Source: Candidatus Zixiibacteriota bacterium
GTDB taxonomy: Bacteria; Zixibacteria; MSB-5A5; GN15; JAAZOE01
Direction: 5' to 3'
NCBI GenBank assembly: GCA_030668485.1
Contig: DAOUTW010000051.1
Span: 1-32,690 of the forward strand
DNA length: 32,690 bases
The notes beneath the pieces are model-generated. The model saw only the letters and a list, made by a program, of their open reading frames with translations, was not told where the DNA came from and ran no database searches. A program made the translations under genes and the position numbers. Below, piece after piece: positions 9,771 to 32,690 of the stretch (its first letter is position 1; every line of letters starts with the position of its first letter).

Positions 9771-9908
9771 GGATTCGAAATCTACTAAGTATCGGAATAT
9801 CGTGCGAATAGGCCGAAAATGACTGCGAAACATGATTTGGTGAATTTTGTAACTTATTGAGAATCAATTGATTATAAATAAGCTGGCCATAGTGGACTAT
9901 CTTAGAAC
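9771..9908 (+). repeat. Intergenic element, copy 1 (138 nt)
   Basis: It begins with GGATTCGAAA (9771-9780) and ends with the invariant 28-nt core at 9881-9908 (AGCTGGCCATAG ... CTATCTTAGAAC). The core holds the dyad ATAGT-GG-ACTAT. Copy 2 is similar along the whole length, including the preceding end of the dockerin gene. Right after the core this copy departs from the others (TTTTGGAAG instead of YGCSGC), which marks a probable left junction of the accessory block. Confidence 0.9.
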
Positions 9909-16813: not shown

Positions 16814-16950
16814 GGATTCGAAACATACTAAGCATATGATTAGCAGGCGATTAGGCCGAAAACGACAGCGAAATAAGACTTGGGGCGATTTGTAACTTAT
16901 TGAAAATCAATTAGTTAAAATAAGCTGGCCATAGTGGACTATCTTAGAAC
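16814..16950 (+). repeat. Intergenic element, copy 2 (137 nt)
   Basis: GGATTCGAAA at 16814-16823 and the invariant core at 16923-16950. Its middle (TAGGCCGAAAACGAC, TTTGTAACTTATTG) is clearly homologous to copy 1. It is followed by TGCCGCG, as in copies 3 and 4. Confidence 0.9.
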
Positions 16951-17161: not shown

Positions 17162-19501
17162 TTGCGTGGGGCATACTTGGACGGTCTCATTAAAACTGTC
17201 AGCTTGACAGATCCATTTAACACGGCGCATTGTTTATCCTGGATGAGCCTGATTCTGATGATCTTCTGGCTTGGGACATCAGCCAGCGCTATCGAGAGGA
17301 TGACAGTAGACGCCTCACAGGACACCAGTTATCTTTCGCACCGTTTCGCGGAAATTCCAGCGGGGGCCACTGCCTCAGCGAAAACAAAGAATCAATATCA
17401 CCCGGTTCGTATTTATTCCGAAAGTCCAGATATAAATGGAATAAGGTGGCTGATGACGGCAAGAAATTCTCCTCCGGGAAGAGACCTCCCCGCAATATTC
17501 GGTCGTCGAGATTTTCCGGATTTTGAAAAGAAGTTGGATGATGCCGTTCATCTGACAGTCAATGATTACATTCTCTATGATGATCTCGCTTCTGGATTAA
17601 AAGCCTTGGTCGGTGCAGGGTATAAGAATGATACCGCCTGCGTGTTCAAATTTTATCCCGAAGCGGACTCACTGCCTTTGACCGATCGGTTTATTGCAGC
17701 CGGCACGGATGCAACTGGTGACGGCCAATGGGAACCCTCGATTTATAGCGTCTTATCCGATGATTACGATTTGGATGGACAAGTGGAAGTGTTTTTTTAC
17801 ATGACGTCGCATCATGATGCAGGCCCCAGGCGGCTGTACTGCGTGGAAGTCGAAAGCCTTACTCTTGAGTGGGAGATAGATGTCGCAACCCAGATACCAA
17901 CCCATAATCAATTTTTTTTCAATTCAGATAGCCTAAGGGCGACTGTAGCTTTTGTGTCTATTCCGCATTTTCAGGGACACTCAGATGCGAATTTCGATGA
18001 AAATTTCGGGTATTTTTCAATAATTAATAACCGAGGTGAACTGGTCGTCAACAAAATTGGTACCATAGGGTCGGGAGCCATTCACTTAGTGCCCGGAGAA
18101 GCAGGTGAGTGTTATTATATTAGTCACCAGATACCGCTTACGGAGCCGGATAGTATACTCAGTCTTTCGAAATCGCAGTTGGAAGTGATGATCGATAATA
18201 AGTGGCGCATATCGAAGGTCGATCCAAATGGTAAAATCTTGAAAGTAAAAGAAATCGATCAAAAACCAATCTCTCTATGGCTGCAAACGTTTGGGCCCGA
18301 CTCAAGAATGCATCTGTATGTTCGTCATCCCTTTGGCGCCATGTCGGTATATGACTTGGATCTTTCTCTTAAAGGCATGTCACCGCCGTCCCGGATAGGA
18401 TCATACCTTGGGTCTCTAAATATGCCAGGTTACGAGAATGCGTGGGTATGTACTGATGGAATTTACTCGTCTGATCTCATAAAACTGATTCACTTTCCGC
18501 GGGAGGTGCATTACTTCGAATCATTGGTGGTGGATAGTAATAACTCCGTGACAACTCTGGTTATTGGCTGGACTAATGGTTGGGCTGTGGGACACCTTGA
18601 GAAGAGAAGTTCCCTGGATTTGCTTGCGGTATTTTATGTCAAGAACAAAGTTTATGGCCTTATGATACTTTCGAGTCTGTTGGCTGGGTTGGTGATTATG
18701 AATTTTTATAGGCGACGGGCAAAACATGATTATCAGACAATTACCCGACAGAAGGTGGAACTGGAAACGACTCACATGGCTCTAAAGAAGGCGCAGCAAC
18801 AAATTGTGGCTCAGGAGAAATTCAGACAGGCAAGAGATATCGCTGGAGGCTTCGCCCACGAAATTAGAAATGCTCTCTTCCCTGCCCGAAGCGCCCTCAA
18901 TAAGCTGACTTCAATCAACAAAACACCTCATCTTGATCCCGAACAAGTTAAGAGCCTCTCCAAATTCACAGATGAGGCTATTGTCCGGGCCATAGATCTT
19001 ACGAAAAAAGTATCTTGGTACAGCAATCTGGAATCTGCCAGGGCAATTGAGATAGTTGATGTGGATAAGGCCCTGAAGGAAGGGTTGAATGCAAACCAAA
19101 TGAGAATTGCCGAGAACAAAATTGCAATTGAGCGATCCGGCGAGTCCGATCATATCGTCGCAGGGAACCACGATCACCTGGTAATGGTTTTCAATAACCT
19201 GCTCATAAACGCTTTGGATGCATTGACAGGAGTGGATAAACCGCTTATTATAATAGAACAGAATGCCGATGATGGATTTCTCGCCGTCAGATTCACCGAT
19301 AATGGTCCTGGCATTCCTCCGGAGGACGTCAGCAGAGTGTTTGAGATGTTTTTTTCTACTAAGTCCGATACCGGTACGGGACTCGGACTGCCCATGGTTA
19401 AAAAGATTGTTGAAATGTATGGCGGTTCTGTAGAAGTAAAAAACAATCATGATAAGGGTACTTCATTTGAGTTGCACCTAAAGCTGATTTCTTCCGATTA
19501 A
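17162..19501 (+). CDS. Membrane sensor histidine kinase with FG-GAP-like sensor region
   Basis: Up to 779 residues. A hydrophobic signal/anchor (SWMSLILMIFWLGTSASA) precedes a ~450-residue predicted periplasmic region that includes DATGDGQWEPS and DYDLDGQVEVFF, motifs like calcium-binding FG-GAP/VCBS propeller repeats. One membrane helix follows (VYGLMILSSLLAGLVIMNFY, ~497-516), then a coiled coil, the HisKA box with His566 (GGFAHEIRNALF), the N-box NNLLINALDA, DNGPGI and GTGLGL. It should autophosphorylate and feed the NtrC-type protein 45 nt downstream. The start is uncertain: TTG 17162 and ATG 17243 both lack a good RBS. Confidence 0.86.
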   Translation: MRGAYLDGLIKTVSLTDPFNTAHCLSWMSLILMIFWLGTSASAIERMTVDASQDTSYLSHRFAEIPAGATASAKTKNQYHPVRIYSESPDINGIRWLMTARNSPPGRDLPAIFGRRDFPDFEKKLDDAVHLTVNDYILYDDLASGLKALVGAGYKNDTACVFKFYPEADSLPLTDRFIAAGTDATGDGQWEPSIYSVLSDDYDLDGQVEVFFYMTSHHDAGPRRLYCVEVESLTLEWEIDVATQIPTHNQFFFNSDSLRATVAFVSIPHFQGHSDANFDENFGYFSIINNRGELVVNKIGTIGSGAIHLVPGEAGECYYISHQIPLTEPDSILSLSKSQLEVMIDNKWRISKVDPNGKILKVKEIDQKPISLWLQTFGPDSRMHLYVRHPFGAMSVYDLDLSLKGMSPPSRIGSYLGSLNMPGYENAWVCTDGIYSSDLIKLIHFPREVHYFESLVVDSNNSVTTLVIGWTNGWAVGHLEKRSSLDLLAVFYVKNKVYGLMILSSLLAGLVIMNFYRRRAKHDYQTITRQKVELETTHMALKKAQQQIVAQEKFRQARDIAGGFAHEIRNALFPARSALNKLTSINKTPHLDPEQVKSLSKFTDEAIVRAIDLTKKVSWYSNLESARAIEIVDVDKALKEGLNANQMRIAENKIAIERSGESDHIVAGNHDHLVMVFNNLLINALDALTGVDKPLIIIEQNADDGFLAVRFTDNGPGIPPEDVSRVFEMFFSTKSDTGTGLGLPMVKKIVEMYGGSVEVKNNHDKGTSFELHLKLISSD

Positions 19502-19545
19502 CTAGTTTTATATTACTCCATAATTTCGTTTGACACAGGCGGATT

Positions 19546-20913
19546 ATGATAAAAGAGAATGAATACATAGTTCTTATTGTCGACGATGACAGGCACGTAT
19601 TGGAAGGTCTTCTTCTTCTGCTGGAAGACAGTTTTAAAACAATTAGTGCATCGTCGGGTCAACAAGCCATTGATCTGGTAAAGGGCGACGCTACTATCGG
19701 AGTCGTGGTGATGGACATTAAAATGCCGGGTATGAACGGTTTGGAGGCGGCTCGTGTTATAAGAAGCTTAGAACCGGATATCCCTGTGATATTCCACACC
19801 GGCTATCCGGGAGAGTATTCGGAAGAGGAAATAGACGCTACAGAAAATCCGTTCGAATATGTCCAAAAGGGGGAGTCGGTTTGTCGGCTGACTCGGGCAG
19901 TCAAAAACGCGATGGCTTCATTTTTGGCAAAAAAAGAGACAGTGCGCCTGTCTGAGTATGCTGAGCAGTCGTTTGGCCTGGCAGGAAAGTCAAACCTAAT
20001 GCAGGCAATCTACCGTACGATCAATAAAGTGGCACCTTCCGATACTAAGGTTATGGTCCTGGGGGAGACGGGCACAGGTAAAGAACTTATAGCACGAGCG
20101 ATACATGGACACAGTAATCGCTGTGAACAACGTCTTGCGATATTTAACTGCAATCATAAATCACCAGATCTTGTGGAATCGGAACTGTTCGGTCATGTTA
20201 AGGGAGCATTCACTGGTGCAGTTACAGATCATGTCGGCCTGTTCGAATATGCCAATGGTGGCACCGTGTTTCTGGACGAGATAGGTGATCTCGATATTAC
20301 TACACAAGCAAAGGTTCTCCGCGTTCTCGAGTCCGGTGAATATCAGACGATCGGCAAGTCACCTCAACTGAAGAAAACTAATGTACGTGTTATATGCGCC
20401 ACCCATCACGAACTTGAGCAATTGGTTCGGGAAGGCAAATTCCGCGAAGATCTGTATTATCGGTTGAAGGGTATCACCATTGTGATTCCTTCACTTCGTG
20501 AGCGGAAGGAGGACATTCCGCTGCTTGTCACGAAGTTTGCTGACCGTTTCACTATTGAACAGGATCGTTCACCCGTCTATTTCGACCAATCCGCAATTCG
20601 CGCCCTGCTTGATTATGAATGGCCGGGAAACGTGCGGCAGTTGTTGGATACGGTTGAATCGCTGATTGTACTGACCGACTCGGAAATCATCATCGGCAGA
20701 GACGTTGAGAACTACTTGGGCTCGAAAGCAGCTCTTAATGATGAATCCTGGAAAAGCCTAGCCGCACGAATCGACGAATTCCGTAAAACCTGCATTATCG
20801 AGGCTCTCAGTGAGACTGATGGCAATCAGCGTGCGGCAGCACGTCTTTTGCAGGTAGATCCCGGTAACCTCAGCAGGTGGATCAAGGCATTTAAAATCGA
20901 TTCTTGTAAATAA
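19546..20913 (+). CDS. NtrC-family sigma54-dependent response regulator
   Basis: A 455-residue activator with the full three-domain layout. The receiver (1-120) has acidic residues Asp13/Asp14, phosphoacceptor Asp57 (VVMDIKMPG) and Lys in YVQKGE. The AAA+ domain (~140-380) has Walker A GETGTGKE (173-180), an intact GAFTGA loop (220-225) that contacts sigma54, and Walker B GGTVFLDEIGDL. The C-terminal Fis-type HTH is GNQRAAARLLQVDPGNLSRW. It is encoded right behind its likely partner kinase. The next gene has a near-perfect sigma54 promoter, so that gene is its most obvious target. Confidence 0.93.
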   Translation: MIKENEYIVLIVDDDRHVLEGLLLLLEDSFKTISASSGQQAIDLVKGDATIGVVVMDIKMPGMNGLEAARVIRSLEPDIPVIFHTGYPGEYSEEEIDATENPFEYVQKGESVCRLTRAVKNAMASFLAKKETVRLSEYAEQSFGLAGKSNLMQAIYRTINKVAPSDTKVMVLGETGTGKELIARAIHGHSNRCEQRLAIFNCNHKSPDLVESELFGHVKGAFTGAVTDHVGLFEYANGGTVFLDEIGDLDITTQAKVLRVLESGEYQTIGKSPQLKKTNVRVICATHHELEQLVREGKFREDLYYRLKGITIVIPSLRERKEDIPLLVTKFADRFTIEQDRSPVYFDQSAIRALLDYEWPGNVRQLLDTVESLIVLTDSEIIIGRDVENYLGSKAALNDESWKSLAARIDEFRKTCIIEALSETDGNQRAAARLLQVDPGNLSRWIKAFKIDSCK

Positions 20914-21035: not shown

Positions 21036-21051
21036 TGGCATAAGTGTTGCA
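21036..21051 (+). promoter_or_regulatory. sigma54 (-24/-12) promoter
   Basis: TGGCAT-AAGTG-TTGCA: the GG and GC pairs are exactly 12 nt apart, as in the consensus TGGCAC-N5-TTGCA. Transcription should start near 21062, 72 nt before ATG 21134. I could not pick out a convincing enhancer palindrome in 20914-21035. Confidence 0.8.
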
Positions 21052-21133
21052 TAAGGACTATCAGCATGCTACAAACAATGCCATAATAGAAGAAGCTCAA
21101 GGCAAAGATGATGTAAACAGAAAGGAAAGAAAA

Positions 21134-22876
21134 ATGCGCAATGACAAAAGTTCTATTTGGGGGTTAATCATTGCAACACTGATCGTTTGTATGATAGGAA
21201 GCACGGCCATCGCAGATGATTTGTCTTCAAATTCAAACATGCTTATCACTAAGGGGGCTCCCAGCAGTTCCGTCCGAAATTGGGATATTTACATGACCTC
21301 TCCATATGGTTCCACCGAGGTTCTTTTATTTGACGATTCCTGGGAGACAAGGGAGGTGAAATGGTCTCCTGATATGTCAAAAATAGTGTTTATCACATAT
21401 ACATCTGAACCTCCTGCAGCCTATGAACTCTTTGTGATGGATGCCGATGGTGGATCGGTCGAAAGGTTGACTTTCTATGGCGATAGTTGGGGGCCGGCCA
21501 GCCCACGGTGGCGGGATAATTCAACAATTTGGTGGGTTAGGACAGGAACCGGAGATCTGTATCGAACCACCTTGGATGGTTTACCGGACAGCGTTATTTA
21601 TGAAGCTCCCCCCGGAACTTCGCTGGGGCAGATCGATGTCAATGACTCGTTGGTTGTTTACAGTCGTCAGTCCACCAGTTCGGCGAGTACCTTCGATCTG
21701 TATCTTAACAATCTTTCCTTCACAAATGAGAGGAGAATTACAAACAATTCGAGATCAGATGTCGGGCCGGGCTTCTCACCCGATGGGCAGTATGTAGTTT
21801 ATCGGGGATCCAGTGCCGCGAACGGATACAGTGCTCCGCAGAATATTTTCAAAGTAAATATCGGATCATTAGTTGAGTCTCAGCTTACCTATGCATCGGG
21901 TGGTGTGACATATGGCGTCCCGGTCTGGGCACCCGATGGAACTAAGATCGCATGCTATGGTTATGCTGGCTACCAACACGAAATCTATACGATGAATCCT
22001 GATGGAACTGAGTTGATGAACTATACTAACACGCCAGATCTTAGCGAGGTTTTATGGGATTGGCAATTAACCCCAATGCTATTTGTGAATCTTGATATCA
22101 AGCCCGGATCATGTCCTAATCCCCTCAATGTAAAATCACCCGGCGAGGACTGGCTTTGGGTTGGTGATGAAGATGAAGAGCAAGACGCCGACGCCACCTC
22201 AACCGTGATGTCAAAACCAAAGCAGAATCGTCATAAAAAGGCGGTACTGCCGGCCGCAATCCTCGGATCAACTGATGTTGATGTCATGGAAATTGACCTC
22301 AATACAGTCATGCTGAATGGTGTTCCGGTTCTGCGTTGGGCCTATGAAGATGTTGCTACGCCGATGAGTGATGATTCCGAAGAGTGTGAATGTAATTCCG
22401 ATGGTCCGGATGGGTACACCGATCTGACGCTTAAATTCCTCAGGGATGAAATTATCGCATCATTGGGTGAGGTTTACGATGGGCAGGTCATCTCTTTGAC
22501 TTTCAGCGGTCAATTAATCGACGGCACACCGTTTGAAGGTTCTGACTGTATTCTTATCATTGCCAATGAGGCCAATATGGTGGATGGAAATATCGATGGG
22601 CCAGTCGTTGATGTCAACAACTATCCTAATCCGTTCAACCCGACAACGACTCTCAGCTTTGCTTTGGAAACGGCCTCACATGTCAGGCTTGATGTGTTCA
22701 ATATCACAGGGCAACTGGTGACTACTCTGGTGAATAAGTATTATGAAACAGGGCGTCATTCAGTGATGTGGGATGCCAAAGACAATGATGGTCGTCAGGT
22801 TTCGAGTGGCATCTACTTCTATCGTGTTGAAGCCGACGGTTTCTCTCAGAGCAAAAAAATGGTTCTCCTCAAATAG
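21134..22876 (+). CDS. Exported TolB/WD40-like propeller protein with C-terminal sorting tail
   Basis: A 580-residue protein. ATG 21134 is chosen because AAAGGAAAG lies 5-7 nt upstream, the signal peptide (IWGLIIATLIVCMIGSTAIA) follows, and the sigma54 promoter lies downstream of earlier in-frame ATGs. Residues ~40-310 carry TolB-like blades (WSPDMSKIVFIT, FSPDGQYVVYRG, WAPDGTKIACYG). Residues ~320-480 form a beta domain with acidic stretches and DGPDGYTDLTLKF, seen in many exported proteins. The last ~85 residues are a FlgD-like/type IX sorting-like tail (YPNPFNPTTTLSF ... SSGIYFYR ... SKKMVLLK). Probably surface-bound or secreted. It is expected to depend on the upstream kinase/NtrC pair. 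Confidence 0.9.
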   Translation: MRNDKSSIWGLIIATLIVCMIGSTAIADDLSSNSNMLITKGAPSSSVRNWDIYMTSPYGSTEVLLFDDSWETREVKWSPDMSKIVFITYTSEPPAAYELFVMDADGGSVERLTFYGDSWGPASPRWRDNSTIWWVRTGTGDLYRTTLDGLPDSVIYEAPPGTSLGQIDVNDSLVVYSRQSTSSASTFDLYLNNLSFTNERRITNNSRSDVGPGFSPDGQYVVYRGSSAANGYSAPQNIFKVNIGSLVESQLTYASGGVTYGVPVWAPDGTKIACYGYAGYQHEIYTMNPDGTELMNYTNTPDLSEVLWDWQLTPMLFVNLDIKPGSCPNPLNVKSPGEDWLWVGDEDEEQDADATSTVMSKPKQNRHKKAVLPAAILGSTDVDVMEIDLNTVMLNGVPVLRWAYEDVATPMSDDSEECECNSDGPDGYTDLTLKFLRDEIIASLGEVYDGQVISLTFSGQLIDGTPFEGSDCILIIANEANMVDGNIDGPVVDVNNYPNPFNPTTTLSFALETASHVRLDVFNITGQLVTTLVNKYYETGRHSVMWDAKDNDGRQVSSGIYFYRVEADGFSQSKKMVLLK

Positions 22877-23013: not shown

Positions 23014-23151
23014 GGATTCGAAATCTCTAAACAATTGTTAGTCATGCGCTCGGAATAAAATATCACGTGAGACATAATTTGACGGCATGAGTAAGTAATT
23101 GATATGTAATGCCTTACAAGATTAGCTGGCCATAGTGGACTATCTTAGAAC
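23014..23151 (+). repeat. Intergenic element, copy 3 (138 nt)
   Basis: GGATTCGAAA at 23014-23023 and the invariant core at 23124-23151. The middle has diverged strongly from copies 1 and 2, yet the length is the same. It begins about 50 nt after a strong terminator, so it is not simply read through from the upstream gene. It is followed by CGCCGCCT. Confidence 0.9.
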
Positions 23152-23277: not shown

Positions 23278-25488
23278 TTAGTCATTTTCGCCATGATGTG
23301 GACGTTTAATATCTTCGCTTGTTTTCTCGGTATCGGCCACAGGAAAATGCTTCAAGGGAACAACCTTGAGCGGGCATTCTTCTTCGTCGGATTTGCGATG
23401 AGCATGCCCCCATATGTTTTCAATTGCCCGCCCGGCATTGCGATGGATATTCTCCTCCCCGATTTTTGCCAGAAGACCGGTCCGTCGCATGGCATCAATC
23501 ACGACATCATTGAGGCCACTCATGGAAACACCCAGACCTTGTTCGCGAAGACGGCCAACCAGGCCTGCCAGTGTCTCCTCACCCGAGGCATCCAATTCAT
23601 TGATTCCATTGCCGACAATCAGGACATGTCGAAGTTCCGGCATTGCGCGAACCGTCTCCAAAACCTGGTCTTCAAGATAGCTGACATTGGCAAAAAAGAT
23701 TGATCCCGAATAACGGATCACTGCAATATGCCGGCATTGATCGAGATCAAAACGGAGGCGATTACGATAAGTCCCGTCCGGATGAAGCGACAACATTGAA
23801 ATTGCCGGTTTCATATTGCGGACAAGATATACCAGTAACGACAAGGCGACGCCGATAATGATTCCCCGGTCGAGATGAGGAGCAAACGCCAGCGTAAACA
23901 CAAAACTGATAATGCCGATAATGCCGTCAAATTTCTGAACCCGCCAGGCATGGACGAAAGTCTTCACATTCAGCAAGCCTACCACCGCCATCATGATAAT
24001 GGCGGCCAGTACTCCCTGTGGAAGGTGATATAAGAAGGGAGTGAAGAACATCAGGGTGATAACGACAACCAGACTGCTGAAAACACTCGAAAGCCCGGTC
24101 ACCGCACCGGCCTGAAGATTTACTGCCGATCTGGAGAACGATCCTGAAACGGCATAACTCTGTCCGAATGAGCCAACAATATTTCCGATGCCCTGACCGA
24201 TCAGTTCCTGATTGGGATTGAGGCGCTGGCCGGTTTTGGCCGCCATCGCCTTGGCAATGGAAATGGCCTCCATGAAACCCAAAAGAGATATAATCATGGC
24301 CATTGGTATCAGGCCTACAGCCGTGGAAATCGTGATAGAAGGAGTCTTCAGGGCCGGCAGGCCACTTGGGATATTACCTACCACCGCCCCGCCTCCCGTC
24401 ATAGTCAAAGATGCGGTATCCAGGGCGTTGTTTCCGACTTTAAGGCGCCATATATGCCCGGTGGTCTCGCTTCCTGACGGAAGTTCAGACGGGCGATAGA
24501 AAAGAAGGCTGCCATCGGGCTGATTTATCGCCTGAAAAAAGAATCCTCTCAGTTCCGTTCGATATTCATGGATTTGTTCCTTGAGACGGTTTATCTCTGA
24601 ATCGACAATGTGAAGCTTATATCCCGCCTGAATAGCGTCGCGTGATTCCATCCCCTGATCTCCTACAACGGTTTCATAATCATTCCGGAGGAGAACGCGT
24701 TCATCGCATTCGCGGATTAATCCATCACAGGCGGCATCAAATTCATTTACCAGACGGTGAAAAGGAGGCGATTGAATCTGATTGACATTCACCTGGCTAT
24801 TATGCTCAAATCCGGTCAGCCATGAAATCAGGGTTGTTACAACCACCGCCACCAGAACACAGGGGATACGGCGGCTGAGACGCCTCAGTATTATCATTAT
24901 CGCAAAAGCGAGAACCGCCAGCCCAAGAGTCGGCCAATGAGTATAGGACACAGCCGCCTTCAAGACATTATGGATAGTCTCGTAGTGATGGGCGGCGCTA
25001 TCGACGTAGACGCCGAAAAGTTTGGACAACTGAGAACTGGCTATTATCAGGGCCGCCGCATTGGTAAAACCGTTGACCACGGGATGAGAGAGAAAATTAA
25101 CGATCAAGCCGAGTCGCAGGATACCCAGTGCAAGCTGAAAAACGCCTACCAGCAGCGCCAGAATGATAGCATAGGCTATATATGCCTCACTCCCCGACGT
25201 CGCCAGCGGCTCGAGTGCCGTTGCGGTCATTAGGGAAACAACTGCTACCGGACCGGTCGCCAACTGCCGGCTGGAGCCAAAAAGGGCGGCAACCATCGGA
25301 GGCAAAAAAGCGGCATATAAACCATAGTAGGCGGGAAGGCCGGCCAATTGGGCGTATGCCATCGACTGCGGCACCAATACCAATGCGACTGTCAGACCGG
25401 AAATCAGGTCGGCGCGGAGTTTATCCGCGGAATAATCTTTAATCCAACCCAGGAAGGGAAAAATGCGCTCAATCGCTATTACAGCCAC
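23278..25488 (-). CDS. SulP/SLC26-family anion transporter with STAS domain and large extra loop
   Basis: A 736-residue inner-membrane transporter, starting at GTG 25488 with GAGGAA upstream. The SulP core is clear (GLTVALVLVPQSMAYAQLAG, ATGPVAVVSLM, FSRSAVNLQAGAVTG). The C-terminal STAS domain (~555-690) has the loop NELDASGEETL. Between GFE (~226) and the conserved VGNIPSGLP (~372) lies an insertion of ~140 residues, charged and partly helical (EINRLKEQIHEYRTELRG), with two cysteines. By the 7+7 helix topology it follows helix 7 and should face the periplasm. Substrate (sulfate, bicarbonate or other) cannot be told. It is downstream of the CBS gene in the same direction and divergent from the phosphorelay. 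Confidence 0.9.
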   Translation of the reverse strand: MAVIAIERIFPFLGWIKDYSADKLRADLISGLTVALVLVPQSMAYAQLAGLPAYYGLYAAFLPPMVAALFGSSRQLATGPVAVVSLMTATALEPLATSGSEAYIAYAIILALLVGVFQLALGILRLGLIVNFLSHPVVNGFTNAAALIIASSQLSKLFGVYVDSAAHHYETIHNVLKAAVSYTHWPTLGLAVLAFAIMIILRRLSRRIPCVLVAVVVTTLISWLTGFEHNSQVNVNQIQSPPFHRLVNEFDAACDGLIRECDERVLLRNDYETVVGDQGMESRDAIQAGYKLHIVDSEINRLKEQIHEYRTELRGFFFQAINQPDGSLLFYRPSELPSGSETTGHIWRLKVGNNALDTASLTMTGGGAVVGNIPSGLPALKTPSITISTAVGLIPMAMIISLLGFMEAISIAKAMAAKTGQRLNPNQELIGQGIGNIVGSFGQSYAVSGSFSRSAVNLQAGAVTGLSSVFSSLVVVITLMFFTPFLYHLPQGVLAAIIMMAVVGLLNVKTFVHAWRVQKFDGIIGIISFVFTLAFAPHLDRGIIIGVALSLLVYLVRNMKPAISMLSLHPDGTYRNRLRFDLDQCRHIAVIRYSGSIFFANVSYLEDQVLETVRAMPELRHVLIVGNGINELDASGEETLAGLVGRLREQGLGVSMSGLNDVVIDAMRRTGLLAKIGEENIHRNAGRAIENIWGHAHRKSDEEECPLKVVPLKHFPVADTEKTSEDIKRPHHGEND

Positions 25489-25620: not shown

Positions 25621-26166
25621 TCACCTTTGCATTTCATCCGGTGGGATTATCAATTTGGCGATTCGGTGAAGTACTTCGGTCGATCGCGCCATACCCACCA
25701 CCGCCCCGTCCTTGATGATCGGGACGATGCTGACATCATTAATTGCCATGAAATTGGCTACTTCCAAAAGCGGCTTATCATAAGCGAGGGTAACACGTAT
25801 CGGCGTCATGATCTCGCTGACCATACGCTCGGCATGAAGATCCAGCTCCTCAATCGAACCCTGAGTTGTCGCGTTCGGTGAACGGAGATCGCGATGGATT
25901 CCGGGATCTTCTTCGCCCTTTCTTTCCCTGGACTCCTGCATCGCGTCCGGGCTCAGCCCGCGCAATAGATCCCGCCTTCTGACCATTCCCATAAGACGAT
26001 ATTCCTTGTCAAAGACAAGGACCACCCGTGGCAAAGATTTTCGGCCACCTACTTCAAATTGGGTCTTTTCCATTTCGATGATCGCCTGCCGGAGTGAAAA
26101 CCAATGAGGAACATGCGGGTATCTATCCAGATGTATCATTATATCTTCGGCATGAATGTTCTCCAT
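25621..26166 (-). CDS. Tandem CBS-domain protein
   Basis: A 181-residue cytoplasmic protein. ATG 26166 is chosen because GGAG lies 7 nt upstream; a longer frame to 26247 lacks an RBS. Residues ~5-75 (AEDIMIHLDRYPHV ... LVFDKEYRLMGMVRRRDLLRG) and ~120-175 (VSEIMTPIRVTLAYDKPL ... VPIIKDGAVVGMARSTEVL) are the two CBS motifs, joined by a charged linker. CBS pairs bind adenosyl nucleotides and regulate partner proteins; the SulP gene 132 nt downstream on the same strand is the likely partner. Confidence 0.85.
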   Translation of the reverse strand: MENIHAEDIMIHLDRYPHVPHWFSLRQAIIEMEKTQFEVGGRKSLPRVVLVFDKEYRLMGMVRRRDLLRGLSPDAMQESRERKGEEDPGIHRDLRSPNATTQGSIEELDLHAERMVSEIMTPIRVTLAYDKPLLEVANFMAINDVSIVPIIKDGAVVGMARSTEVLHRIAKLIIPPDEMQR

Positions 26167-26438
26167 AGCTCTACTCCTAAGACTTCGGGTCAAGCCAATG
26201 AGCCCTAAAATAGCGTGCCCGAAAGTGGCGAGCAAGCTTTTTTTCATCTAACTAACATTATATACAGCCAACGATAATACACCACCAATTAAGTATTGTA
26301 TTATTTGCCGAACATTGCGGTTCATCGAAAAAAAATAGTTATTCTCAGCTTGCTTCAGCATGTTTTAGTACTTGCTTATCACGGAGACAGTACATAATAT
26401 GCATTGACGCCCCACAGGGGTATTTTAGGGAGACAACT
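26167..26438. other. Divergent control region between CBS/SulP and phosphorelay genes
   Basis: A 272-nt AT-rich gap that should hold promoters for both directions. I found no sigma54 signature and no clear palindrome; a short open frame extends the CBS gene upstream but lacks an RBS. Confidence 0.4.
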
Positions 26439-27653
26439 GTGGCGATAATTTCAATTTTCAGCGGTTCTTTCTGCGGTGCCGATGAGGTGGTCGAACAGGT
26501 AACCAAACAGCTCGGCTACGAATACATCGACGGCAAAGTCTATGAGGAAACGGAAAAACGGTACAATATAAAGAAGGACAGGCTTGAACGATCCCTCTGC
26601 GGAGGGGAATCACTTCTTAACAGTCTCACTCACGAGCGAGAGAAAAACATCGCATGCCTTAAAATCGTGCTGGCCGAATTGATTCTGTCCGATGACGTCG
26701 TTATCTTTGGTTGTGCCTCCCACCTTTTGCCCCGAACCATTCCGCATATACTGCGGGTCTGCCTTATCGCCAATCTCGATTACCGGATAGAGCAGGCGAT
26801 GAAACTGCGTTCAACGTCGGAAAAGGAAGCACGTAAAATCATTCATAATGACGATAAGAAAAATTACGACTGCACTGACAGCCTCCTCGATAAAGAAGCT
26901 TATGATGAGGAACTATACGACATTCTAATTCCCATGAACGATACATCGTTTGAAAAAGCAGTCGAAATGATTTGCGAATATGCCCGGAGCGAACCGGTCC
27001 GAACCACTGAGCGTTCGCTTCAGACGGCCCGCGACTTTGTCCTGGCATCACAGGTCAGCCTGGCCCTGGCTGGGGCCGGCCACGATGTCGAGGTTCATGC
27101 CGAAAACAACCGGATCATCTTGCTGATTAACGAATACATGGTCCGCATGAAACACCATCAGGAAAAACTGATCGAAATAGCATCGGCTGTTCCGGGGGTG
27201 GAGGAGGTCAGCGCCCGCATCGGTCCAAAGTATGATGCGCCGACAATCAACCCCTGGTCGGATATCGATGGGCCGCCCAAATTCCTCCTCGTCGATGATG
27301 AAAAGGAATTTGTTCAGACCCTGTCGGAAAGGCTTCTGAGCCGCGATATGGAATCTGCTGTCGCCTACGATGGCGAGCAAGCGCTTGACATGCTGCAAAA
27401 AAACGCTCCCGAAGTCATGGTCCTTGACCTGATGATGCCGGGGATAAACGGTATCGAAGTGTTGCGCCGGGTTAAAAGGGATCACCCCGAGGTGGAAGTT
27501 ATTATCCTCACCGGGCATGGATCGGAATATGAACGGACGGAGGCCGAGGAATTGGGCGCCTTCGCCTATCTTGAAAAACCCGTTAATATCGATCATCTGG
27601 CGAAAGTCATGAAAGCCGCGTATAAAAAGGCCAACGAGAGGAAATCGGGCTGA
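26439..27653 (+). CDS. Cytidylate-kinase-like / BON-like / receiver fusion protein
   Basis: A 404-residue protein from GTG 26439 with GGGAG upstream. Residues ~1-185 resemble the cytidylate-kinase-like family (IISIFSGSFCGADEVVEQV, LGYEYIDGKVYEE, VVIFGCASHLLP, RVCLIANLDYRIEQAM), but the nucleotide loop lacks the usual GKS/T, so kinase activity is doubtful. Residues ~200-265 look BON-like (VEVHAENNRIILLINEY, AVPGVEEVSARIG). Residues ~280-400 are a complete receiver (FLLVDDEKEF, VMVLDLMMPG, ILTGHG, YLEKPV). First gene of a plus-strand cluster with a kinase, two lone receivers and a degenerate kinase. It may sense a nucleotide or stress and act as a phosphorylated output. Confidence 0.83.
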   Translation: MAIISIFSGSFCGADEVVEQVTKQLGYEYIDGKVYEETEKRYNIKKDRLERSLCGGESLLNSLTHEREKNIACLKIVLAELILSDDVVIFGCASHLLPRTIPHILRVCLIANLDYRIEQAMKLRSTSEKEARKIIHNDDKKNYDCTDSLLDKEAYDEELYDILIPMNDTSFEKAVEMICEYARSEPVRTTERSLQTARDFVLASQVSLALAGAGHDVEVHAENNRIILLINEYMVRMKHHQEKLIEIASAVPGVEEVSARIGPKYDAPTINPWSDIDGPPKFLLVDDEKEFVQTLSERLLSRDMESAVAYDGEQALDMLQKNAPEVMVLDLMMPGINGIEVLRRVKRDHPEVEVIILTGHGSEYERTEAEELGAFAYLEKPVNIDHLAKVMKAAYKKANERKSG

Positions 27654-27706
27654 CGACAGGATCAAATTCCAGGTAACGGGAGTAAATAGAGACAGTTATC
27701 TACCAG

Positions 27707-29413
27707 ATGAAAAGTCAGGGAAAAAATACTCAGGAAACCGCATTGCCTCCGGAATTGGCGGGAACTCAATTCCCTAAATATCGCAGGCTGCGGCGCAATG
27801 TCATCCTCATCACGGCATTGGTCGCCATTACCCCGCTGGTCGTTCTAACAATTATCAACTATCTGCAGGACAGGGAGGCCTACCGGGTTGAAAGTCACTA
27901 TGGCGTAGCCCAGATACTGTCCAACACCAAGCGTACTCTGGAGTCAGTGGTTGAGGAACGGCGCTCGGCTTTGGCGCTGGTCATCAGTGAGCGGTCGTAT
28001 CATGAATTGAATAGCGACTCTTCCCTGGCGTTCACTCTCCGTAATCTCAAAAATTCCTTCGGGGGATTCATAGACCTCGGCCTGATCGATTCCAAGGGAA
28101 ATCAATCGTTTTACACCGGGCCATACGATCTTAAAAACCGAAGTTACGAGGACCAGGAGTGGTTTCATGAGGTTGTTTTGCGCGGATCTCATGTTAGCGA
28201 TGTATTCATGGGCCACCGCAATTTTCCCCACTTCGTAATCGCCAATAAGCATGAACATGAATTGGGGGATTTCTACATTATCAGGGCCACGCTCGACATG
28301 GAATTGCTCAACCAACAAGTATATTCCCTAAGCCTTGATCGCAATACCGATGCGTTTATTATCAATAAAGATTCTATCTTGCAGACGGCTTCGATCTTTT
28401 TCGGACCGGCCTTGAGAAAAGCCCCCATTGAAATACCTACCCTTTTCGGCGATCGCGAACTTGTGGAGGAGCACCGGGACTATGGCGACTGGGTTGTCTC
28501 AGGTTACTCGCAAATTAAAGGATCGCCTTTTACTCTGGTTGTCATCAAGCGTCTTGAGGGGTATTTTAGTCATTGGCTTTCTCACCGGGCTCAGATTTTG
28601 TGGTTTCTGGCACTCAGTACTACGCTAATCTTGCTGGTCATAGCCTATAGTGCCAATCACATGACCAAACGGCTTCGCAAAGCTGATCTGAGGCGCGCCA
28701 AGGAATTTCATAATATTGAGTATACCAACAAAATGGCGACTATTGGACGGATGGCGGCCAGCGTGGCTCATGAAATCAATAATCCCATGGCAATCATTAA
28801 TGAAAAAGCCGGTCTCATACAGGATTTAGTCGGGTTTTCAGAGGAGTTTCCCCAGAAACAAAAAATGCTCGGCCTTGTGGATTCCATTGTCTCTTCTGTC
28901 GAGAGATGTAGCAAAGTTACGCACCGTTTGCTCGGATTTGCCAAGCGAATGGAAATACGTCGCGAGTCAATCAATATTCGCGAATTACTCGACGAAGTCG
29001 TCGGCTTCCAGCGAACCGAAGCTCGCCATCGGAATGTTGAAATCATTTACAATTTCCCCGATAACTTGCCTAACATCAGTAGTGACCGCGGCCACCTGCA
29101 ACAGGTGTTTCTGAATCTCGTAAATAACGCCTTCGCAGCCATCGACTCCGAAGGAAAGGTAGAAATTTCCGTCACATCACCGGATCATTCTTCGATCGCC
29201 GTCGCCATAAAGGACAATGGAGCAGGTATCCCGCAGGAAGACCTTCAACATATTTTTGAACCGTTCTTTTCCACGAAAAGAGAATTTGGCACTGGGTTGG
29301 GGTTGTCAATTACTCGAGATATTGTAGCCCGCCTGGGAGGCAAAATAGATGTCGCCAGCGAGGTCGGCAAAGGAACCTGCTTTACAATCACCCTACCCCA
29401 TCAAAGCGCATAG
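27707..29413 (+). CDS. Cache-type sensor histidine kinase
   Basis: A 568-residue membrane kinase. Helix 1 (~33-53, LITALVAITPLVVLTIINYL) and helix 2 (~297-318, ILWFLALSTTLILLVIAY) bracket a periplasmic region with dCache-like character (FGGFIDLGLIDSKGNQSFYTG, DQEWFHEVVLRG, SDVFMGHRNFPHFVIA). The kinase core has His355 (SVAHEINNPMAII), N-box NLVNNAFAAI, DNGAGI, FEPFFSTK and GTGLGL, all intact. The RBS is weak. It probably phosphorylates the lone receiver 14 nt downstream and possibly the receiver of the upstream fusion protein. The ligand is unknown. Confidence 0.9.
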   Translation: MKSQGKNTQETALPPELAGTQFPKYRRLRRNVILITALVAITPLVVLTIINYLQDREAYRVESHYGVAQILSNTKRTLESVVEERRSALALVISERSYHELNSDSSLAFTLRNLKNSFGGFIDLGLIDSKGNQSFYTGPYDLKNRSYEDQEWFHEVVLRGSHVSDVFMGHRNFPHFVIANKHEHELGDFYIIRATLDMELLNQQVYSLSLDRNTDAFIINKDSILQTASIFFGPALRKAPIEIPTLFGDRELVEEHRDYGDWVVSGYSQIKGSPFTLVVIKRLEGYFSHWLSHRAQILWFLALSTTLILLVIAYSANHMTKRLRKADLRRAKEFHNIEYTNKMATIGRMAASVAHEINNPMAIINEKAGLIQDLVGFSEEFPQKQKMLGLVDSIVSSVERCSKVTHRLLGFAKRMEIRRESINIRELLDEVVGFQRTEARHRNVEIIYNFPDNLPNISSDRGHLQQVFLNLVNNAFAAIDSEGKVEISVTSPDHSSIAVAIKDNGAGIPQEDLQHIFEPFFSTKREFGTGLGLSITRDIVARLGGKIDVASEVGKGTCFTITLPHQSA

Positions 29414-29427
29414 ATGGAGACGAAAGC

Positions 29428-29796
29428 ATGCCCAAATTTCGAGCACTGCTGATTGACGATGAGGAAGAACTTGTCAGCACATTAGTCGAGCGGCTCGGTT
29501 ATAGAGACATCGAATCCGACTATGCCCTGAATGGCCAGGAAGCGCTTCACAAGATGACCGAGAATCACTATGATGTGGTGGTGCTCGACTTGAAACTGCC
29601 GGGTATGGACGGACTGGAGGTTCTGCGGCGAATCAATCAGGCTTATCCCAATATACCGGTTCTACTCATCACCGGTCATGGATCACCGGCCAGCGAAATA
29701 AATAATAAGCCGGACGGCGCCTACGATTATCTTGCAAAACCGATCAATCTCGAAGACCTGATAACCCATATGCAACATGCTATTCAGCATAATTAG
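29428..29796 (+). CDS. Single-domain response regulator (receiver only)
   Basis: A 122-residue receiver without an output domain: LLIDDEEEL, phosphoacceptor in VVVLDLKLPG, ITGHG, and YLAKPI with the conserved lysine. GGAG lies upstream. It is translationally close to both neighbours, and the next gene begins at the very next base. It most likely relays phosphate between the kinase upstream and other receivers of the cluster, or acts by protein binding. Confidence 0.9.
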   Translation: MPKFRALLIDDEEELVSTLVERLGYRDIESDYALNGQEALHKMTENHYDVVVLDLKLPGMDGLEVLRRINQAYPNIPVLLITGHGSPASEINNKPDGAYDYLAKPINLEDLITHMQHAIQHN

Positions 29797-30471
29797 ATGG
29801 TAGGAATGGAAAATAATTCGAAACATCAAGCGAAATCGCCAGGGGATGACGGTCTGGCCTTCATGGGAACCATTACCGCCTCCGTTTCTCATGAACTCAA
29901 CAATGTCATCGCAATCATGGATCAGACTACAGGGCTTTTGGAAGATAAACTATCCGGTGCCGGGGATGAGGTTCGGATTCCCTCGGAAAAACTTGAGAAA
30001 ATCGTGACATCCCTGCAAAATCAGGCGGCAAGGGGACTGGCCATCATCAAAAGTCTGAATCGATTTTCTCACAGCGCCGATCATACCAGATGCAGATTCG
30101 ATGTCGGCGAGACGCTGCAAAATCTGGTCCAGCTAACCACTCGTCTGGCAACCATGAAGGGCGCTTCCCTTGATGCCAACCTGCCGAATACGCCTGTTGA
30201 GATTGAAAGCAACCCATTCCGTCTCCAGCAGGCCGTTTTCCAGGCCATTAAAATGGCTCTGGAGAATGCACAAAAAGGCGATGTGATAAACATCGCTTTG
30301 GGACAGTCGGACCACCTTGTGAAAGTCACAGTCGATGGTCCAGGGATAATATCAAACACCAAAGATATCGATCCATCCGAGTTACAAACGATAATAAGTC
30401 GGATGTCGGGAGAAGTTAATATTGAACATGCTGATCAGCGGCTTTGCATCCACCTCAGTTTTCCTGGATGA
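29797..30471 (+). CDS. Degenerate histidine-kinase-like protein
   Basis: A 224-residue soluble protein. The dimerisation/phosphoacceptor helix is intact (GTITASVSHELNNVIAIMDQ), and the ATPase-like half follows (FRLQQAVFQAIKMALENAQ at the N-box place, VDGPGI at the G1 place). The N-box asparagine pattern is altered, and the F-box and the GTGLGL lid are missing. It may therefore fail to bind or hydrolyse ATP, and act as a phosphotransfer or scaffold protein that keeps the H-box. The ATG directly abuts the previous stop codon, indicating coupled translation; no separate RBS is seen. Confidence 0.82.
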   Translation: MVGMENNSKHQAKSPGDDGLAFMGTITASVSHELNNVIAIMDQTTGLLEDKLSGAGDEVRIPSEKLEKIVTSLQNQAARGLAIIKSLNRFSHSADHTRCRFDVGETLQNLVQLTTRLATMKGASLDANLPNTPVEIESNPFRLQQAVFQAIKMALENAQKGDVINIALGQSDHLVKVTVDGPGIISNTKDIDPSELQTIISRMSGEVNIEHADQRLCIHLSFPG

Positions 30472-30543
30472 GCAGACTAGTTCGTCTTGATGGCACAATT
30501 TGATATTGAATTTTTGGATATGCAAAATTAGAAAGGAATTAAT

Positions 30544-30975
30544 ATGGCAACAGCGAGCGTTTTAATTGTCGATGACGAGATCGAATTCTCCGCTGCAATC
30601 GCGGAAAGGATGATAAATCGCGGCTTGACTGCCGATACCGCCGAAAGTGGTATGCAGGCATTGGAAATGTTAAAGGGAAAATCATACGACGCCATCATCC
30701 TGGATATGGCCATGCCGGAAATGGACGGCTTTGAAACCCTCAAGCAAATGCTGGAATTCGATAAAGACCTTCAGATAATATTTTTGACCGGCCAGGCGAC
30801 GGTTCAGAAAGGCGTTGAGGCCGTCAAATTAGGAGCTGTCGATTTTATGGAAAAGCCGGCCGACATCGCCACTCTCATCGGAAAGATAACCGAAGCGCAA
30901 CAGAAAAAGGTGCAGCTCTTCGAGGAAAACCTTCAGAACAAGATGTCTGATATCTTGAAAAAGAAGGGATGGTAA
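30544..30975 (+). CDS. Single-domain response regulator with helical tail
   Basis: A 143-residue receiver: VLIVDDEIEF, phosphoacceptor in IILDMAMPEMDG, FLTGQA and FMEKPA. A ~30-residue charged helical tail follows (EAQQKKVQLFEENLQNKMSD). GAAAGGA sits 6 nt before the ATG. It is the last gene of the phosphorelay cluster. Without a DNA-binding domain it presumably works by protein contact, perhaps on the divergent SulP/CBS pair; this is inference. Confidence 0.88.
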   Translation: MATASVLIVDDEIEFSAAIAERMINRGLTADTAESGMQALEMLKGKSYDAIILDMAMPEMDGFETLKQMLEFDKDLQIIFLTGQATVQKGVEAVKLGAVDFMEKPADIATLIGKITEAQQKKVQLFEENLQNKMSDILKKKGW

Positions 30976-31177: not shown

Positions 31178-31212
31178 ATAAATAAGCTGGCCATAGTGGA
31201 CTATCTTAGAAC
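31178..31212 (+). repeat. Intergenic element, copy 4 (core only)
   Basis: The invariant core lies at 31185-31212. Together with the preceding ATAAATA it matches copy 1 exactly over 35 nt. The GGATTCGAAA box is not found at the expected distance (about 31075), so only the 3' part is conserved. Orientation is the same as the other copies, but the adjacent exported-protein gene is on the opposite strand. Confidence 0.88.
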
Positions 31213-31351: not shown

Positions 31352-32690
31352 CTATTTTAGCAGGATCATTTTCTTGGATTCAAGAAAATCGTCAGTCTTC
31401 ATCATATATAAATAGATTCCAGATGGTACTTGCGTACCGAAGTCATCTTTTCCTTTCCAAAATACTGAATGAATACCCGCAGAAAATTGTCTATCTACAA
31501 GTACCTTGATTCTCGAACCAAGCAAGTTAAATACTTCGATTCTTACATGACTGGTTCGTGGTATAGTGAATTCGATACGAGTCTCAGGATTGAAGGGATT
31601 CGGATGGTTTTGATATAGAGCATAGCGATTGGGCAAAATATCAGCCTCGTTATCCGTTACATCGGTTTGAATCTCAATATTCGCTATGATGTCCTTTTTA
31701 CTAACCATAGTTATTGTCAGTGGGTTATTAAGTGTATCAGTATCCGGGACATCTCCCGACCATTTCTTAAAAATATACCCCTGAAAAGGATTGGCTGTTA
31801 CTTGCACAGACTGATTACTGGCATACCAGCCTTCTTGAGGCGTTACAGTCCCCCAATCAACATTATTGACCGAGGCGGTCAGCTGATATTCGGTCGTGAA
31901 ATAGGCCGTGCAGGTGGTGCCCCCAGTGACTGTAATCTGGTGGTTCTGATTGCCACCGTCACTCCAGTGGTCGTAGACAAACTGCGTTCCCGTTGCTCCT
32001 GCCTGAGGGGAAGGCGCTCCAATATTGTGAGTCGAACCATCTTCCCAGGTAAATGTCTTGGGCGAGTCATAATTGTTGCCGTCTACTGTAACCTGACGAC
32101 CGGAGGGGTCAGTGGTTATAGTCACCTGATATGTCTGCTTGACGAAATTAGCGATTGCATTTTTCGGTTCATTCATCGTCACCCAGGTTGGGTTGCTCGT
32201 TCCTGAGGCACCGCCGGACCAGTGAGAGAACTTCCAACTCTGGTTCGCATTAGCGGTAACCTGGACGGATTCATTATTCGGATACCAGCCTTCCTGAGGT
32301 GTGACAGTCCCCGTGCCGTTCGGATTAACTGAGGTCGTCAATCGATACTCGGTATTATAGTAAGCCGTGTAGGTAGCGTTACCGGTGACTGTGATTTGGT
32401 GGTTCTGATTGCCGCCATCACTCCAATTATCGAAAACATACTGCGATCCTGTTTCTCCTGCCTGAGGGGAAGGCGCTCCAAGGTTATGAGTCGAACCATC
32501 TTCCCAGGTAAATGTCTTGGGCGAGTCATAGTCGCTGCCGTCCACACTGACCTTTCGACCGGAGGGATCAGTGGTAATAGTCACCTGATATGTCTCTTTA
32601 ACAAAATTGGCAACTACGTCTTTCGGCCCACTCATCGTCACCCAGGTTGGGTTGCTCGTTCCTGAGGCACCGCCGGACCAGTGAGAGAAC
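31352..32690 (-). CDS. Repeat-rich exported protein with C-terminal sorting tail (5' end off window)
   Basis: The frame is open to the right edge (445 residues seen), so the N-terminus and signal are missing. An ATG at 32641 is internal: the preceding codons are a repeat copy. The protein holds about two and a half repeats of 153 residues built from divergent InlB-B-type modules (YQVTITTDPSGRKVSVDG, FDNWSDGGNQNHQITV, GTVTPQEGWYPNNESVQVTA, WKFSHWSGGASG). The last ~85 residues form a FlgD-like/type IX sorting-like tail (HPNPFNPETRIEF ... SGIYLYM ... ESKKMILLK). Such repeats form beta-rich stalks; it is probably a surface adhesin or the stalk of a larger enzyme. A terminator follows the stop. 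Confidence 0.88.
   Translation of the reverse strand, partial: FSHWSGGASGTSNPTWVTMSGPKDVVANFVKETYQVTITTDPSGRKVSVDGSDYDSPKTFTWEDGSTHNLGAPSPQAGETGSQYVFDNWSDGGNQNHQITVTGNATYTAYYNTEYRLTTSVNPNGTGTVTPQEGWYPNNESVQVTANANQSWKFSHWSGGASGTSNPTWVTMNEPKNAIANFVKQTYQVTITTDPSGRQVTVDGNNYDSPKTFTWEDGSTHNIGAPSPQAGATGTQFVYDHWSDGGNQNHQITVTGGTTCTAYFTTEYQLTASVNNVDWGTVTPQEGWYASNQSVQVTANPFQGYIFKKWSGDVPDTDTLNNPLTITMVSKKDIIANIEIQTDVTDNEADILPNRYALYQNHPNPFNPETRIEFTIPRTSHVRIEVFNLLGSRIKVLVDRQFSAGIHSVFWKGKDDFGTQVPSGIYLYMMKTDDFLESKKMILLK

Follow-up and report, generated by a model that had tools for sequence, protein, structure and literature searches.

A recurrent transporter and signalling gene cluster of Zixiibacteriota that may regulate sulfate uptake at the protein level

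We analyzed a 32,690-nucleotide stretch of DNA (the window) that forms one entire contig (DAOUTW010000051.1) of the 4.5 Mb genome of a Candidatus Zixiibacteriota bacterium (assembly GCA_030668485.1). Genes for a SulP/SLC26-family transporter and a CBS protein lie on the reverse strand, divergent from five signalling genes on the forward strand (26439-30975). The latter encode a fusion of kinase-like, BON-like and receiver parts, a Cache-type sensor histidine kinase, and three small proteins that we refer to as REC2, HKdeg and REC3 (Table 1). Reading frames and Pfam confirm the divergent layout described in an earlier note on this DNA; the transporter does belong to it, at coordinates beyond the 25621-30975 that the note assigned to the cluster. 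None of the seven proteins contains a DNA-binding domain above the Pfam cut-off, in agreement with the same note.

Table 1. Genes of the cluster and the insert within its transporter gene, with positions in the window.
Feature	Position	Strand	Evidence
SulP/SLC26-family transporter with C-terminal STAS, 736 amino acids (aa)	23278-25488	-	Pfam PF00916 E 2.6e-106, PF01740 E 5.3e-12; NCBIfam TIGR00815 446 bits (cut-off 380)
SulP insert of ~141 residues (residues 226-366)	24391-24813	-	uncovered by alignments of solved SulP/SLC26 proteins; AlphaFold2: two long helices and strands
Accessory protein of 208 aa with two CBS stretches	25621-26247	-	Pfam PF00571
Cytidylate_kin2-like/BON-like/receiver fusion, 404 aa	26439-27653	+	Pfam Cytidylate_kin2 E 1.1e-22, Response_reg 2e-27
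Cache-type sensor histidine kinase, 568 aa	27707-29413	+	Pfam HisKA, HATPase_c; dCache_1 4.7e-9, 36.6 bits, under cut-off 45
REC2, single-domain receiver, 122 aa	29428-29796	+	Pfam plain receiver
HKdeg, with His32 in its phosphoacceptor helices and a decayed ATPase half, 224 aa	29797-30471	+	Pfam HisKA and partial HATPase_c, both under cut-off
REC3, receiver with conserved C-terminal tail, 143 aa	30544-30975	+	Pfam plain receiver

The gene-neighbourhood comparison suggested in the earlier note revealed that the arrangement is conserved in other genomes. The fusion is carried by 25 of the 132 genomes of the window's phylum (Zixiibacteriota): 23 at E≤1e-50, the window genome included, plus G092, where a contig end cuts the gene, and G128, where it occupies two overlapping frames. 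In these 23, which match the kinase-like/BON-like part, the frames run on into the receiver. At the 25 phylum loci we detected the histidine kinase in 24, SulP in 19, HKdeg in 18, REC2 in 16, REC3 in 13 and the CBS gene in 5. A scan of named genomes returned 45 loci, 37 of which do not duplicate the phylum set; among these, the fusion was found in 33, the kinase in 31, SulP in 29, HKdeg in 26, REC2 and REC3 in 16 each, a DASS-like transporter in 9 and the CBS gene in 7. These presence counts rest on BLAST bit thresholds and best-hit labels, with loci at contig ends kept, and so are lower bounds (weaker CBS matches in L124 and L138 are excluded). The earlier note had offered CBS as a possible target of the pathway; because the CBS gene is accessory, present at so few of the phylum and named loci, it is unlikely to be the general target, and we rejected it as such.

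The titles of the named-locus records refer to Zixiibacteriota, Electryonea, Hatepunaea, Deltaproteobacteria (Desulfoferrobacter suflitae DRH4, Desulfobulbaceae, Desulfocapsa) and a Nitrospirae fragment, and the comparable Deltaproteobacterial sets that the note mentioned thus exist. Of 297 sampled genomes in the phylum to which Desulfoferrobacter suflitae belongs, 35 (the centre genome included) match fusion residues 1-275 at E≤1e-49, in open frames of 359-533 aa; this count concerns the N-terminal part, as the receiver lies outside the query. The neighbourhood is not due to chance, because it recurs in genomes of the window's phylum and at named loci of other groups. That the transporter and the signalling set are unrelated neighbours merely travelling together is very improbable. 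SulP went undetected at 6 of the 25 phylum loci and 8 of the 37 named loci, several of them cut by contig ends, as unrelated neighbours would allow; against this, the set recurs in several phyla and in more than one gene order, and a DASS-like transporter adjoins the same signalling genes at some loci. At three loci (L042, L099 and L100), the fusion adjoins a CBS gene and a DASS-like transporter, and the stretch covered shows no SulP; L042 and L099 run out shortly past the fusion, so that SulP may lie beyond the end, and the L100 DASS assignment is by BLAST only.

Carriage of the cluster is associated with sulfate respiration genes. A dsrA match at E≤1e-15 is present in 25 of 25 carriers versus 28 of the 107 other genomes (Fisher 1.5e-12). 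At the curated cut-off of the model the figures are 23 of 25 versus 24 of 107 (1e-10), and by genus (E≤1e-3) 20 of 20 versus 21 of 65 (1.9e-8). These p-values overstate the case because the genomes are related, and the association covers the 132 genomes of the window's phylum. The dsrA matches of two carriers are fragments (G041, which may be dsrB, and G122), and the weak matches of G107 and G126 were discarded. Among the 14 control genomes, 6 match at E≤1e-3, none of them over the cut-off. For aprA, 19 of the 25 carriers score over the cut-off, three have fragments (G061, G097, G122) and three are weak (G018, G075, G091), with 25 of the 107 others over the cut-off. The fusion gene of G078 lies ~0.9 kb from dsrA; at this locus (G078:C1, ~441300-445700) the cluster adjoins dsrAB, with a short CBS gene in between.

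The active sites of the signalling proteins are well preserved. The Cache kinase, called intact in the earlier note, retains its catalytic residues H355, N474, D503 and G505 in 54 of 54 sequences, the match of its sensor region to dCache_1 being under the Pfam cut-off. REC2 has D10, D11, D54, T82 and K104 in 32 of 32 sequences, and REC3 has D10, D11, D54 and K104 in 30 of 30 and T82 in 29 of 30. The note described both as receivers lacking an output. They do lack DNA-binding domains, but REC3 is not a bare receiver, as the C-terminal tail of its 143-residue form is conserved (A118 in 30 of 30, I137 in 27, G142 in 24 and W143 in 25). Such column counts omit identical sequences, members that were too short or scored too low, and loci L062, L063, L065 and L066; alignments A3, A4 and A5 comprise 39 of 44, 44 of 45 and 50 of 55 collected members.

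HKdeg looks like a candidate histidine phosphotransferase, and its phosphoacceptor helix is strongly conserved. His32, Asn36, Gly46, Asp50, Arg79, Phe90, His92 and Arg116 are found in 44 of 44 sequences. Mean column identity is 0.66-0.74 over residues 17-48 and 0.26-0.39 over residues 145-224, and past residue 141 not one column is conserved at ≥85%. The ATP-binding boxes are lost, as indicated by the partial, sub-threshold HATPase_c match and by the alignment. The Cache kinase in the same cluster can be aligned with HKdeg over the length of HKdeg (hhalign 99.7). 'Degenerate kinase', the label used in the note, undersells this phosphotransferase-like protein. In Candidatus Desulfobia pelagia (L127), a single frame of 344 aa encodes REC2 and HKdeg together, and hhalign relates it to HKdeg with a probability of 100. 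A 325-aa protein at L110 with a C-terminal REC3-like receiver was also checked as a candidate HKdeg::REC3 fusion and is not one.

Phospho-histidine helices and a non-working ATPase domain are likewise found in ChpT, Spo0B and PhyT, which hold the place in a relay that we propose for HKdeg. In contrast to this likeness, neither ChpT nor Spo0B is named among the 18 profile matches of HKdeg in the PDB; two of these are designed or unrelated proteins, and the rest are ordinary kinases or kinase parts. Alternatively, HKdeg may act as a phosphatase, or as a scaffold that sequesters the receivers, leaving a two-step kinase/receiver pathway with a sink. A Glu/Asn pattern after the phospho-histidine is tied to phosphatase activity in such kinases, and HKdeg keeps Glu33 (41 of 44) and Asn36. 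PhyT was itself initially taken for a phosphatase, according to the accessible part of PMC5898713. We regard this alternative as unlikely, given that the phospho-histidine is invariant and that ChpT and PhyT, with similarly decayed ATPase domains, are phosphotransferases, PhyT being reported in the accessible text to have no phosphatase activity in vitro.

The fusion protein belongs to the cytidylate kinase-like family PF13189 (81.4 bits against a cut-off of 28), and 23 of 23 homologues match Cytidylate_kin2 at E≤1. By profile, the kinase-like part matches 3fdi, an uncharacterized protein, and 3hdt, a putative kinase. The note had named a kinase-like/BON/receiver fusion, of which Pfam supports the first and last parts. 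BON (PF04972) has no Pfam match in the window protein; it matches 7 of 23 homologues at E≤1, the best at 0.012 and short of the Pfam cut-off. The AlphaFold2 model of the fusion (mean pLDDT 89.1) has an alpha-beta-beta-alpha-beta order at residues 191-261, which we take to fit the BON fold. As a firm assignment BON was dropped, the cut-off being unmet and the support weak, and we refer to the region as BON-like. Receivers are among the matches listed in a fold search with the entire model. The receiver site is intact (D286, D287, D330, T358 and K380 in 55 of 55). Cys12 of the kinase-like domain, present in 48 of 55 fusions, presumably lies in the loop where a P-loop would be. Compared with the 54 other receiver matches in the genome, the fusion receiver is closest to REC2, two receivers of a sister cluster (see below) and REC3, which is fourth by a small margin (67.0 bits versus 65.6 for the fifth match).

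The transporter is a SulP/SLC26 protein with STAS, since both domains score over curated cut-offs, and the top Foldseek matches are SLC26 members. Its substrate is most likely sulfate, considering the dsrA association and published clade arguments. The alignment to AtSULTR4;1 passes over residues ~226-366, which also fall outside the best stretch of all 22 solved SulP/SLC26 sequences. In the best of five models (mean pLDDT 80.0, others 61-74; insert blocks 83-94), this charged insert forms helices 241-278 and 283-314, with strands thereafter. The insert follows a helix preceded by RRLSRR and thus, by the positive-inside rule, would probably lie outside the cytoplasm. The accessible text of Marietou et al. 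(2018; PMC5840216) describes SulP group Ci of sulfate reducers, ~710 aa long, with an insertion relative to Rv1739c and PA1647. That insertion comprises ~90 aa and an extra transmembrane helix, whereas the one found here has ~141 aa modelled as charged helices. All 44 aligned cluster SulPs have a Cys-Pro after the STAS domain (residues 705-706), which, taken with Cys12 in the kinase-like domain, might hint at redox or sulfide sensing.

An insert of this kind raises the possibility that the transporter is a sensor input, with the insert contacting the Cache kinase and reporting transport while the receivers act elsewhere, for example on enzymes of sulfate reduction. Co-sensing by a transporter and a kinase is a known principle (BceAB-BceS, UhpC), and cluster SulPs carry the modelled helical hairpin. 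Against this, of the 31 places in 29 of the 132 phylum genomes where the insert occurs, 20 are at a cluster and 11 are elsewhere (for example in G069 and G124, both without a cluster), and the existence of a receiver-DASS transporter fusion suggests that the transporter is the output. We consider a sensor role of the transporter distinctly unlikely.

That receiver-transporter fusion (REC::DASS, 677 aa) is encoded in a second cluster of the window's genome, on contig C137. There it accompanies genes for a Cache kinase, a CBS protein, a further receiver and a sodium/proton antiporter. Of the matches to the window kinase in the genome, that of the C137 kinase is the strongest (221 bits, residues 21-564, sensor region covered); the next has 122 bits over residues 320-566. 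Full-length REC::DASS is found in at least 29 of the 132 phylum genomes and at least 32 places, 64-90% identical to the C137 copy; the counts are lower bounds as nine candidates per genome were scored. Its receiver residues D8, D9, E10, D53, T81 and K103 are invariant in 31 sequences (one partial, 617 aa). It shares the association with dsrA, of which 28 of its 29 genomes have a match. At L062:6080-7783 (-), a sodium/proton exchanger with a TrkA-N domain follows the REC::DASS cluster, and ion coupling with a sodium-driven transporter is conceivable. The accessible text on SLC5/STAC histidine kinases (PMC9100948) likewise describes a signal domain covalently joined to a transporter; there, a kinase is fused, whereas in REC::DASS it is a receiver. 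The presence of REC::DASS in the sister cluster supports protein-level output on a transporter, the output that the earlier note had thought probable.

Domain content, active sites, the loss of the ATP boxes, the recurring neighbourhood, the dsrA association in the window's phylum and the fusions REC2::HKdeg and REC::DASS are all read from sequence. We propose, on balance and with slightly more confidence than doubt, that the cluster is a multistep phosphorelay regulating uptake of an anion, most likely sulfate, by the adjoining transporter at the protein level. We favour a phosphorelay with this output because DNA-binding domains are absent, two natural fusions exist, DASS-like transporters lie beside the same genes, and a kinase remnant conserves its phospho-histidine. 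The Cache kinase would sense a periplasmic small molecule, probably sulfate, autophosphorylate, and phosphorylate the fusion receiver and/or REC2. HKdeg, with its phosphoacceptor histidine kept and its ATP boxes gone, would relay the phosphoryl group from REC2, and REC3, with its conserved tail, would act on SulP, possibly by way of STAS. An intracellular, perhaps nucleotide-related, signal may enter through the kinase-like/BON-like part of the fusion. We infer the ligand, the direction of flow, the contact between REC3 and SulP, and the effect on transport.

Several observations weigh against this proposal, beginning with the loci noted above at which SulP went undetected. No receiver::SulP fusion was seen, and the receiver-transporter fusion found here involves an unrelated family, DASS. 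In the D. suflitae phylum, where the SulP set is commoner, just 1 of 297 genomes has a match to the REC::DASS linker, and a search of eight named genomes returned one full-length copy, in Electryonea; REC::DASS as a general feature of sulfate reducers is rejected on these grounds. Among 53 genomes with dsrA (E≤1e-15), 15 have neither the cluster nor full-length REC::DASS, and the module is therefore not obligatory. Also, a transcriptional output is conceivable, as the window contains a pair of an NtrC-type kinase and a sigma-54 response regulator (17162-20913, +). This pair, which lies upstream of the cluster, consists of a 779-aa protein with a histidine-kinase ATPase domain and a 455-aa sigma-54-type response regulator. 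Finally, a frequent Deltaproteobacterial gene order is a gene of 190-210 aa, SulP, fusion, kinase, REC2, HKdeg and REC3, and seven of seven such first genes tested encode TetR proteins (six before SulP and one, at L137, directly ahead of the fusion in a locus that lacks SulP). In that group a separate protein thus adds transcriptional control, which qualifies the protein-level output supposed in the note.

The accessible part of a 2025 study of Desulfobacteraceae (PMC11887813) describes SulP and DASS clusters with Cache kinases, WalR-type response regulators, TetR and CBS proteins, and proposes promoter control, that is, control of transporter formation, which also stands against our proposal. 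There, Cache kinases would sense sulfate and response regulators act on transporter promoters, with TetR and CBS as a second level. The gene content of that SulP cluster suggests that it is the same as ours, Desulfobacteraceae being among the loci found here, and because it fits the Deltaproteobacterial loci the association of transporter and signalling genes as such is already published. Unlike the WalR-type regulators, the receivers here have no DNA-binding domains, neither those of the window nor, among Deltaproteobacterial loci, the five receivers and one receiver::HKdeg fusion that were checked. Apart from the 344-aa and 325-aa fusions, the collected REC2 and REC3 proteins measure only 116-167 aa. 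TetR is a separate regulator, and Pfam found no TetR gene among the cluster genes of the window. A scan of the window for sigma-54 sites gave 9 matches against a mean of 15 in shuffled sequences, and none between the divergent genes. Control of these transporters at their promoters, although published for a similar gene set and consistent with the TetR genes and the NtrC-type pair, is in our view improbable for the window cluster. The SulP and DASS transporters are termed abundantly and constitutively formed in the accessible text of PMC11887813, which fits post-translational control.

The kinase-like fusion, the phosphotransferase-like remnant and REC::DASS go beyond the accessible text of that study. 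Our literature searches, which left most subscription journals uncovered, found no paper on the kinase-like/BON/receiver fusion, the phosphotransferase-like protein or the receiver-transporter fusion, and the gene set of the cluster is not described in the accessible part of PMC10102598. According to that of PMC5840216, high-affinity uptake switches as the supply of sulfate changes; the same text notes that there are many candidate proteins and that those which carry sulfate are unclear.

Beyond the cluster, an exact 27-base sequence occurs four times in the same orientation in the window (9882-9908, 16924-16950, 23125-23151 and 31186-31212, all +), spaced ~6-8 kb. All copies are on this contig and two bracket the cluster; no further copies at ≤2 mismatches were found elsewhere in the genome. 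A Peptidase C10 family protein is encoded at 7654-9282 (+). The frames flanking the cluster, at 31352-32689 (-) and 21044-22876 (+), terminate in KMILLK and KMVLLK, which we take to resemble C-terminal sorting tails; the former frame is visibly repetitive.

To our knowledge, little is known of two-component systems that act directly on a transporter. We suggest, as a prospect just short of even, that the relay of dsrA-bearing Zixiibacteriota ends on the transporter, where phosphorylation of a receiver, either free (REC3 acting on SulP) or covalently joined (REC::DASS), gates the entry of sulfate; the same would probably hold for sulfate reducers in other phyla that have the set. REC::DASS makes this idea of gating testable in one protein. 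Sulfate respiration begins with sulfate uptake; if the suggestion is true, this first step would be under direct, transcription-independent two-component control, and bacteria that breathe sulfate may switch its uptake through protein-level control besides gene expression.

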